In this document: piece by piece, positions 10,715 through 27,804 of the stretch
How positions within the stretch are numbered: the first letter of the stretch is position 1
How the letters are laid out: each line of letters opens with the position of its first letter
Assembly (NCBI GenBank): GCA_013374505.1
Contig: QENJ01000220.1
Span: 1-35,468 of the forward strand
Direction: 5' to 3'
Length of the DNA: 35,468 nt
Source: Candidatus Methanophagaceae archaeon
GTDB lineage: Archaea > Halobacteriota > Syntropharchaeia > Alkanophagales > Methanospirareceae
The notes under the pieces: model-generated
The model's database searches: none
What the model was told of the DNA's origin: nothing
Seen by the model: only the letters and a program-made list of their open reading frames with translations
Translations under genes and position numbers: made by a program

Positions 10715-12057
10715 CATAACATCGCTGACACGCAACACATTCAGAACTTGCACACGAACTCTTTTACAGTTTCATCACTTTTGTACTCATAAATCTTGAT
10801 AATCCCCGCCTTTTCCGCCTTCTGCCCCCGATAGTAGATCATCAATTGTTCCTGCTTCGTGTGAATGGTCGCCCAAACATATTCATAAGCCAACGATTTA
10901 TTGACCTCAAAATCTTCATTCAAGACATTGATAGTCCCGTCTTCCTTCACGTCCCTTATAAAGTGGACCTTTCCCTCAGTAATCGGCAGATTAATACCAT
11001 CAATCGTAAAATCCACAGGAATTTTGCGATGGCGTATAGACACCAGATTAGCATTCCGGTATTTCCAGTCCTGGCGATTGCTATGCCGTGTCAGGAAGAT
11101 TTTTGCTTCTCTTCGGAGGTGCTCTAGATCCGAGAATCGCTCTCGTGCCCACAATTTCTCTTCGAACTCGCCATTAAAGTCCTCTATCGTACCGTTCATC
11201 CACGGCTTCCTTGGTGCGATAAACACAGGTTCAACGCCAAAACAGAGGCATAGTCTAACAACGCGGCTGAAGTGTCTTGCGTGTCTCAAATCCCCAATGA
11301 AATATGCCCCATTATCCATCTGAATATATTTCGGAATCGCATTATTAGTCCAACAATCAAGTAGGAACTCGATCACTGTATCCATACTCCGGCCTGCGTA
11401 TTGCTGGATATATGCCTTGTTACCGAACGACATCAATCAAGTTCCGGGACGATATAGCACCATAACCTTTGATGTTTCTCGGTCCGATAAAGTCTATTTG
11501 ATGGACCTCATTGACTTTAGTCGGATTCAAAAGAGTGTACCGTTTCTTGGATTTGCACCGGACATATCGCTTTCTCTTTTGGATGAGCAGTTTATTCCTC
11601 TTGATTATGCGTTTAATTGTTGACAAACTTGGTGTATCACCTTCTGAGGATCCAAGCTCGTGCATTCGGAGTTGTATTTCTTCGGCTCCGATACAGCGAT
11701 ACTTTGTATCTTCGTTTTCTCCGTCCATCAATGACTTTCGCGCCTTCACCACAAGAGTTTCTAGCTCTTGATTAGTTTTCCGTTGCACTGTTTTCGGCGC
11801 ACGGGACTCTTCCCTGAACCATTCACTCCTATCACTTTTCTTGAAGTTACTGTGTCTTTCAATCCATTTGTACAACCACGTTCTTGACCTATCAATACTT
11901 CCACAAATTTGGGCTGCTCGTTCGCCTCTAAGGTATCGATTAACTGGATCGATACGCACCTGTTCCTCTTTCGTGTAGTTTGTTTTTGCCATAACGCATC
12001 ATCAGATGCACTATGGCTTTTTTATGCAGAAATTACCTAATTGTAAGCGATGTGTTG
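10715..12057. mobile_element. Decayed IS481-like insertion sequence with candidate ends
   Basis: The element is defined by a minus-strand DDE transposase (10741-11992) and a pair of imperfect inverted repeats. The left end, CATAACATCGCTGACAC at 10715-10731, matches the reverse complement of 12041-12057 at 13 of 17 positions, including an uninterrupted ACATCGCT. The ends lie close to the stop and about 50 bp before the start of the transposase, as expected for an IS of about 1.35 kb. No convincing target duplication is visible, so the outer limits are tentative. Confidence 0.5.
10741..11992 (-). pseudogene. IS481-like DDE transposase, frameshifted
   Basis: Two overlapping frames together make one transposase. 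The first (11992 to 11420) has a helix-turn-helix region (GERAAQICGSIDRSRTWLYKWI) and the start of the rve catalytic domain with the first aspartate in HQIDFIGP. The second (from about 11436 to 10741) continues with the second aspartate in YIQMDNGAYF and the glutamate in WMNGTIEDFNGEF. The switch occurs in the overlap at 11420-11436. No A-rich slippery heptamer is visible there, so decay is more likely than programmed frameshifting. The family is inferred from the HTH plus rve architecture. Confidence 0.8.
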
Positions 12058-12137
12058 AGCCTTTCCAACTACGTAACTACTCCAACAGATTGGATCTATG
12101 TAGGCCCTTGATAGGTGATAAAAACTGGGTGATAGAA

Positions 12138-12314
12138 ATGAAAAACACAAAGAAAAGTTTGTGGGGTGAAGGCAGTTTGATGGTAGGGGCATCATCATCC
12201 GCCGTGAGTATTGCTATCAACCCCACAGGCATTTTTTATTTTATTGCATTTGTGGTTTTACTCCTGATTGTGATTTTGATCTGGAGATATTGGAGGAAGA
12301 ACACCATTAAGTAA
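12138..12314 (+). CDS. Small single-span membrane protein
   Basis: This 58-residue ORF has one strong hydrophobic segment (GIFYFIAFVVLLLIVILIW) followed by a basic tail (RYWRKNTIK). It therefore has a positive-inside C-terminus. The frame is open further upstream to 12006, but ATG 12138 has GGGTGA six bases before it and is the best start. It lies isolated between two transposase remnants. No family is recognised and a function cannot be given; it may be a passenger or a leftover of a larger gene. Confidence 0.45.
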   Translation: MKNTKKSLWGEGSLMVGASSSAVSIAINPTGIFYFIAFVVLLLIVILIWRYWRKNTIK

Positions 12315-12444
12315 AAGCAAAATATCTGGTGTAAAATTATTATGCAAATGAAGATATGGTGACTTTTGAGTAAATGTTTGCGAACTGGAATCTGAGAGTC
12401 CCATAGCGGCTTTTTAGACTGGTATTGCATTCATTTATATTGTA

Positions 12445-13152
12445 CTATAACAAGTACTTTTTCAGCATATAATCAACAGCAATACCTGAAACATATTCCC
12501 AATATTTCCATCGTTTAATGAAGGCACCTTTATGCCAAACTTTGAGTCCTCTCAATGTATCTCTGACTTCCACGGTTTCACCAGCCATTTTTTCACTCAC
12601 GTGATACCTTTTCCCCTCAAATTTAACTTTGCCGTTTTCTTTTACTATTCTTTCCGCTTTTTCAAAAAACTGATAATTATCATAGAAACATTTCCGGTCC
12701 TGACTGTGAGCTCTTTCCTTCTTTCCATTTCCCTTTGGATTCTCTACCTCTATTGGGACATCCACGATGCTGAGCATCTGAAGTAACCGAGAGACAACTC
12801 CATTATCGTACTCGCCACCGTTGTCGTGATGGAATAATTCGGGTTTGCGGTGCAACCTGAAAGCTCGAAGGATGGTTAATACAACGAAATAGGAAAGCTT
12901 CTTCGGGAATACGCAAAGAGCCATGTAGCCTCTTGAATAGTCGTCTTCAACATAGATTTGGCATATTAGCGACCCGTTTCCGAGCGTAACCTCCCTGGTA
13001 TCTGCGTGATACATGACGTGTGGCCTGGGTTTTTCATAAAAAATCACTTTCTCGACAATTTCAGAAGATTTATACCGCTCAGGATCGAGAACACGCAAAA
13101 AGCTCATTGTAGGGACGTGAACAGCAAATTCATACGACAGAAGTAAAGACAA
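12445..13152 (-). pseudogene. Second DDE integrase/transposase remnant (rve domain)
   Basis: This frame of about 235 residues contains an rve-type catalytic core. The likely catalytic residues are an aspartate in MYHADTREVTL, an aspartate in LFHHDNGGEYDNG, and a glutamate in NPKGNGKKERAHS. A C-terminal beta-rich region follows (KFEGKRYHVSEKMAGETVEVRD). It has no proper start: the only initiator in the open frame is a TTG at 13152, just after an upstream stop. Its N-terminal part lies separately at 13293-13532. It is unlike the neighbouring IS481-like transposase in sequence, so this is a different element. Confidence 0.75.
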
Positions 13153-25753: not shown

Positions 25754-26081
25754 TGAAAAGATACTTCAAAGGCACACAGCCACATAGAGCAAATAAAAGC
25801 AGAAATCGCTTTTTTACCCGGCCCACCAGAGATAGCTTTAGCAATCGCAAACATTTTCGCATCTTACGAGAAGGTAACAGAACAGCGTAAATTCGTCACG
25901 TATAAGTGCGAAAAAACAGATGGTAAAACTGTTTGCGTAACTTCCACGGGCACCGGCTACCCTTCTGCCGCGATTGTAATAGAAGAGCTTGCGAATTGCG
26001 GCGTTAAGACGTTCATACGAGTGGGCACAACAGGTGCAATTCAAGCGGACATTGAACTTAGGTGACGTGATAATACCATAA
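25753..26081 (+). pseudogene. udp: Uridine phosphorylase remnant, frameshifted and truncated
   Basis: The sequence reads MKRYFK from ATG 25753, then changes frame to SHIEQIKAEIAFLPGPPEIA, and on to VCVTSTGTGYPSAAIVIEEL and GVKTFIRVGTTGAIQADIEL. This is the N-terminal half of a uridine/nucleoside phosphorylase (phosphate-binding and ribose-binding segments). At 26060 a further one-base shift gives GDVIIP before a stop. At least two frameshifts and the loss of the C-terminal half make it inactive. The intact enzyme would cleave uridine to uracil and ribose-1-phosphate. The remnant ends where the promoter of the FmdE-like gene begins. Confidence 0.8.
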
Positions 26082-26147: not shown

Positions 26148-26188
26148 AAAAAGAAGATGAAAAGAAAAGTGACCGTGACGGTTTTAGC

Positions 26189-26196
26189 ATTATTCT
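26189..26196 (+). repeat. Left target site duplication of MITE
   Basis: ATTATTCT here is repeated exactly at 26437-26444, immediately outside the two inverted-repeat ends. An 8-bp duplication is the hallmark of DDE-transposase-mediated insertion. Confidence 0.9.
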
Positions 26197-26436
26197 GTAT
26201 CCTCTTCAAATTAAAGGGTAACCGAGTATTATCTGAAAATCCGCAACTTATAGCCACAAATTTATGCAGATAATACTCCAATTCCGCGCAATATGTGTTA
26301 ATTCCAACCTTAAAAGTAGAGTAAAGTGCTACCTGACCGATAACAGATAAATTTTAGGAATCAAAGCAGGTCAGGACACAGGATTCAGATAATTTGAAGC
26401 CCGCATACGTTTTACCATACTTTTTGAAGAGGATAC
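26197..26436. mobile_element. MITE-like non-autonomous insertion, 240 bp
   Basis: The ends are inverted repeats: GTATCCTCTTCAAA at 26197-26210 equals the reverse complement of 26423-26436 exactly, and matching continues imperfectly (20 of 25). It is flanked by the 8-bp duplication ATTATTCT. The interior has no ORF of note but holds a perfect 12-bp palindrome pair, GAGTATTATCTG at 26224 and CAGATAATACTC at 26267, and a CCTGACC/GGTCAGG pair further on. It needs a transposase supplied by another element; none in this window has matching ends. The clean duplication suggests a fairly recent insertion. Confidence 0.88.
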
Positions 26437-26444
26437 ATTATTCT
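26437..26444 (+). repeat. Right target site duplication of MITE
   Basis: Exact copy of ATTATTCT at 26189-26196. It continues directly into the remaining signal-peptide codons of the FmdE-like gene. Confidence 0.9.
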
Positions 26445-27804
26445 TGTGCACAGTACTCGCAGTAACTGCTTCAGCACAGGTGACAGATGATCAAGAGCTA
26501 CTGTATTTACTGGGCTCTCGAGCATCGGAGATAGCGATGAAAGACCTACCTTTCGATAAGGACGATCCAAATATTTTGGTAATGTCGAGTGCGAGCTATG
26601 CAATAATTGACGGGCATAATACAGATAGATGTATCGATGGCGTTGCAGATGCAAGTGGTTGTACGGTCGGTAAGGGAAACTTGCTTTTAATACACAGAAG
26701 TAGAGAGAAGCCTCTCTGGTTTGCCTTCTTCAGTAAGAATACGAAAGAGTGCGTGTATCTTCAAGTGAATAATGCGGTGCTCGGTAAGAGTGTTGATGAG
26801 CTCAATGCGCTTGCTGACGAAGAGGTCTTTACAAAGATTACGAAGGCGAATATCGGTGCGGATAAGCTGCTGAGCGAGCCAGAAGCATGGGATGAGAAGA
26901 TGAAGGCAGGGATATTTGGTGGCGGTGCAAAGCCATTTAACAACGAGTTCACGATAATGACGATTGCAAACATCTGGGCAAAAGGCGCACCACCGGAACT
27001 CATTCGTGCAAATCAATTCCATAACCACCTCTGCCCGGGGTCTGCAAGTGGATTTCTCTTCGTCAAATATATAGACAATAATCTGCCATTGGAAAAACCA
27101 AGCCAACGCTACCAGATAATTGCAATTAAGCCCTGGTGCAAGGACGACATCATGCAATGGATATTAGAAGCTACCATAGGAAATAAAAATTACATTGCAA
27201 AGGATCTTACTCCTGAACAGATGAAACAATTGCCAGAAGACGCAAAAGATGTCGCCAATGTCGTAATCAGATGGGATTCTGCTACGGGGACGGGAAAAGG
27301 AATAGTCATAGCATGGGATTGGGATAATGCGTGTCAAATGTGCGGCGGAGTAAGCAAAAAAGACCTCACAGCTTTTGATACACATAGATGGTGGTGGATG
27401 AGGTTGAAGATGAATCAATGGATGTTGGATTACACGGACAGCCCGGAGACACTTATTCACACAGTAAAAGAATTCGATGTCAATAGTCTGGCTGAACTGA
27501 ACTATCTCAAATCTGCTGGCGTAAATCCACTGGTTGAGCTTGGTGTCATGCCAAAATCAGAAACGACACCGACACCCGCAGAAAAAACGCCATCAATCCC
27601 TGGACTTGGTGTCATTGCAGCCATAGCCATAGCAGGTGCGCTTGTGTATGTGGTGAGAAGAAGAAAAGCATAATATAACTCACTAAGAAAGTTTAAAAAT
27701 CCGGGTCGTGAGGGCGTAAACGTAACATTACCCTCATCCTTCCCTTCCCTTTTTTTGCAGGAATACTATTACGGGAAAAAATCGGAAAACTTATAAAAGC
27801 CGTC

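Follow-up and report, generated by a model that had tools for sequence, protein, structure and literature searches.

An IS66-type MITE splitting the signal-peptide region of an FmdE-domain gene in an ANME-1 archaeon

Pairings of archaeal MITEs with autonomous insertion sequences (ISs) have been thoroughly catalogued across many families (PMC3852290), and the presence of MITEs inside archaeal genes has a precedent in pyrE of Sulfolobus solfataricus, reviewed together with other gene insertions (PMC10969869). Within the IS66 family, an element of the ISBst12 group (e.g., ISDge4) is described that carries a single ORF between imperfect ends, is flanked by an 8-bp duplication, and moves by copy-and-paste (PMC12898284). 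None of the papers searched combines ANME-1, insertion sequence, and MITE.

The window analyzed here, i.e., the whole 35,468-nucleotide stretch of contig QENJ01000220.1 from a Candidatus Methanophagaceae archaeon, contains a 240-bp element that resembles the prokaryotic MITEs reviewed in PMC10969869, including that in S. solfataricus pyrE, in being short and geneless, with inverted ends and a target duplication, in lying inside a gene, as those sometimes do, and in its presumed mobilization in trans; the reviewed MITEs differ in their transposase families and hosts. An IS66-like element on another contig of the same genome (C223) is like the ISBst12 group in its single transposase ORF, its imperfect repeats starting with GT, and its 8-bp duplication. 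In contrast to the GTAAC/GTGAC ends of that group, the archaeal elements described here have GTATCC ends, the C223 transposase is divergent and scores under curated cut-offs, and the window element has no transposase. Our explanation, which we consider very probable as a whole, is that an IS66-type MITE (8-bp target duplication, GTATCC ends) recently entered an exported FmdE-domain gene of an ANME-1 lineage, that it would have been mobilized in trans, most likely by the approximately 565-aa transposase of the C223 element, and that the insertion, by separating the signal peptide from the protein, would have knocked the gene out.

Structure of the element and its empty counterpart

The interrupted gene and the inserted element comprise the following features, where G002 denotes another species of the same genus:

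26157..26196, + strand: 5′ fragment of the interrupted gene, with the start codon and the first half of the signal peptide (homologous start in G002)
26189..26196, unstranded: left copy of the target-site duplication, ATTATTCT (read from the sequence; exactly equal to 26437-26444; single in G002)
26197..26436, unstranded: 240-bp non-autonomous IS66-type MITE without a meaningful ORF (240-250-bp full-length relatives in other ANME-1 genomes)
26197..26222, + strand: left terminal inverted repeat (26/26 bp shared with the autonomous IS66-like element at G000:C223, at its left end)
26411..26436, − strand: right terminal inverted repeat, perfect in its outer 14 bp
26437..26444, unstranded: right copy of the target-site duplication, ATTATTCT (read from the sequence)
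26444..27673, + strand: remainder of the interrupted gene, encoding a protein with an FmdE domain (PF02663), a C-terminal hydrophobic anchor, and RRRKA as its last residues (Pfam, G002 homologue, and translation)

The earlier note had described a 240-bp element bounded by 14-bp perfect inverted repeats, with an 8-bp target duplicated exactly on either side, all of which can be read directly: GTATCCTCTTCAAA at 26197-26210 recurs as its exact reverse complement at 26423-26436. The extended repeat spans 26 nt at 81% complementarity, in line with the 20 of 25 positions counted previously. Within the interior, the longest open stretch is 52 codons and no transposase gene is present; the window element is thus short and without a transposase gene, and combines terminal inverted repeats with a target duplication, as defines a MITE. 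When the window was simulated 60 times under a first-order Markov model, inverted-repeat pairs of at least 14 bp spanning 100–600 bp occurred at a mean of 0.05 per window, and an abutting 8-bp duplication accompanied none of them, so the combination seen here is not expected by chance. The element also folds more strongly than its shuffles (DNA parameters, z about −5), as is expected for any element with inverted ends. When nine copies are folded to a consensus, covariation contributes little (−2.2 kcal/mol), and several internal pairs are weak or broken. A conserved RNA function was considered and set aside on these grounds.

Decisive and independent evidence comes from G002, where the homologous gene (96% protein identity, with conserved flanks on both sides) is uninterrupted. 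Its site, GTTTTAGTATTATTCTTGTGCACAG, contains a single ATTATTCT and nothing inserted, so that exactly 248 bp are absent at the MITE insertion point, and the gene encodes the intact signal peptide MKIKVTVTVLVLFLCTVLAVSASAQ. Since a single target copy stands at the same point in an uninterrupted gene, the MITE is an insertion; a homologue retaining the 248 bp, for which the earlier note had advised looking as counter-evidence, is not what G002 offers. A DNA search found no copy of the MITE in G002, and no relative of the C223 transposase was detected there at the thresholds used (this genome is 83% complete, and absence from it is not proof). Because both are missing, the G002 site is best read as ancestral and never filled, rather than as a product of excision. 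An assembly origin, with the insertion confined to a minority strain or created by an assembler join, is extremely improbable: the window's genome is indeed fragmented (369 contigs, 79% complete), but a misassembly would not be expected to produce a perfect 8-bp duplication together with precise element ends, and a search of the genome revealed no second full-length MITE copy that could have been misjoined.

Copies in ANME-1 genomes and an autonomous IS66-like element

Full-length relatives of 240-250 bp with 70-88% identity occur in several other ANME-1 (Methanophagales) genomes. DNA searches recovered them in G004 (88%), G069 (80%), G071 (two copies, 70-72%), G005 (71%), and G014 (71%), while a pattern scan for both ends at the MITE spacing in 85,462 GTDB species returned nine stretches, each from a record that bears the label Methanophagales, ANME-1, or, for UBA203 and B131_G9, Methanosarcinales. 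Given that UBA203 and B131_G9 carry members of the same MITE family, we provisionally take them as ANME-1, and the family is apparently confined to this group. UBA203 bears three full-length copies, and the incomplete genome of the window bears one, together with one partial copy; the multiple dispersed copies typical of a MITE family are thus provided by the full-length copies in other ANME-1 genomes. Viral contigs gave no match to the pattern. The partial copy on contig C76 was examined as a candidate longer parent and rejected, as beyond 58 bp it had no convincing transposase similarity.

Perfect 8/8 duplications of unrelated sequence flank the copies in G005, G014, WYZ-LMO13, B131_G9, and UBA203 (two copies), namely GTTTTTCT, TTTTCTTT, GATTTATG, GAAAAGTT, GTAAAACT, and TGTTACTG; the G004 copy has a 7/8 duplication, and a few others have none. 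Across the copies (aligned without copy L095), the two ends co-vary at two positions, a pattern to be expected where a single transposase has to recognize the pair. An open frame whose halves rejoin in phase is also split by at least two further copies, one in G004 (membrane transporter-like by eye) and one in UBA203 (a repeat-rich protein).

A complete IS66-type element of 2005 bp lies at G000:C223:702-2706, in the same genome as the window MITE, with GTTTTATC on both sides as its own 8-bp duplication. Its left 26 bp are those of the MITE without a mismatch, so the ends that a MITE should have in common with an autonomous IS are found on the left, and the right end fits less well (GTATCCTCTCCATA). 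A single transposase ORF of approximately 565 aa, counted from an internal ATG, fills most of the element. Against the NCBIfam IS66 model NF033517, the transposase aligns over both halves (E=1e-27), in keeping with homology to the IS66 transposase, although its score of 97 bits lies under the curated cut-off of 180; a 512-aa part of it falls under the Pfam cut-off as well. The 8-bp target duplication characteristic of IS66 is present at the C223 element and, as 8/8, at most MITE copies. The tnpA and tnpB accessory ORFs of the typical multi-gene IS66 are lacking, and the single-ORF architecture is consistent, within IS66, only with the ISBst12 group. A second such element, with an 85% identical transposase, is present in G048.

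Both the full-length copies in related genomes and the ends common to the C223 IS bear out the designation as a MITE, and the other copies of the ends that the earlier note had asked for are found in the same genome (the partial copy and the IS ends) as well as in related ones. The interiors of the MITE and the C223 IS have no similarity, so the MITE is not a simple recent internal deletion of this IS; it has the look of a separate, older family using the same ends. That the C223 transposase moved the window MITE is, judging from these ends, most likely. The locus adds to the record an IS66-type MITE family, apparently restricted to ANME-1, with a probable autonomous partner, and documents an exact filled/empty site pair across two species of one genus. 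The event, clearly displayed here, is of a familiar type and leaves general knowledge of MITEs unchanged.

Two further mobile sequences were observed. Upstream of the uninterrupted gene in G002, a different insert of 235 bp (L027:1178-1412), missing from the window, is bounded by 12-bp inverted ends (CATGACTTTCGG) and flanked left and right by TTTTA. It has one near-full relative in G001 (90%) and a weaker match in the window's genome (C242, 66%), while fragments of its ends turn up in further ANME-1 genomes; it probably represents a second MITE family unrelated to the window MITE. In the window itself, broken pieces of an IS481-like transposase occupy 10741-13152 on the minus strand, as two adjoining fragments (10741-11436 and 11420-11992) and a separate one (12445-13152).

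Consequences for the interrupted gene

The MITE lands in codons 13-14, inside the signal-peptide codons of a gene whose start codon is preceded by AGGAGGTGA. The FmdE domain (PF02663) is recognized in the remainder with a Pfam E-value of 4.2e-20, and the gene is the single FmdE-like match in the window's incomplete MAG. The frame from the original start runs into the MITE and meets a TAA stop after 38 codons. As the earlier note had calculated, removing the MITE and one target copy leaves an open frame of 1269 bases that begins with MKRKVTVTVLALFLCTVLAVTASAQ. Compared with G002, the remainder contains no frameshift or stop, and dN/dS over the gene is 0.23, a two-species value that mostly reflects the time before the insertion and indicates an absence of decay without giving an age. 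Because the rest of the gene is undecayed, the insertion is probably young, in agreement with what had been proposed from the clean duplication. The suspicion that the gene may be dead is likewise strengthened: since translation halts at 38 codons and the signal peptide is severed from the protein, the gene has most probably been knocked out recently, and the likeliest consequence of the insertion would be loss of the exported protein.

Continued use of the gene is unlikely. A restart at the in-frame TTG at 26444, 11 nt downstream of a GAGG in the right end of the MITE, would enter an intact frame and yield a protein with a changed location; however, the GAGG-TTG spacing is long, the new N-terminus MCTVLAVTASAQV has lost its basic start along with half of the hydrophobic core, the protein would be without a normal signal peptide, and a recent insertion would equally leave the frame intact. 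Still less probable is the switch suggested by the earlier note, in which precise excision would reinstate the frame in a fraction of the population. The frame does return in phase once the element and one target copy are removed, and an autonomous transposase with matching ends exists in the genome, but any clean target duplication would allow the frame to be regained in this way, which is uninformative on excision. Moreover, the empty relative G002 has neither element nor transposase, its site being best read as ancestral, no filled/empty allele pair was found inside one species, and an IS66 element of the ISBst12 group is described as copy-and-paste (PMC12898284), which would leave the site unrestored. 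We accordingly give very little credence to a reversible or stress-linked off-switch for the surface display of this FmdE-domain protein in ANME-1 populations. The record of this MITE family, with its probable partner and the filled/empty site pair, is of use for the annotation of ANME-1 genomes and for spotting a disrupted gene whose start codon would otherwise be miscalled.

On visual inspection, a short frame at 25760-26064, immediately before the interrupted gene, is similar to the N-terminal half of a uridine phosphorylase; it has small indel differences relative to G002. Elsewhere, one ANME-1 genome carries a cluster of several FmdE-like genes of the same kind (G014:C27:17374-29679), including frames of approximately 745-760 codons that hold two copies.
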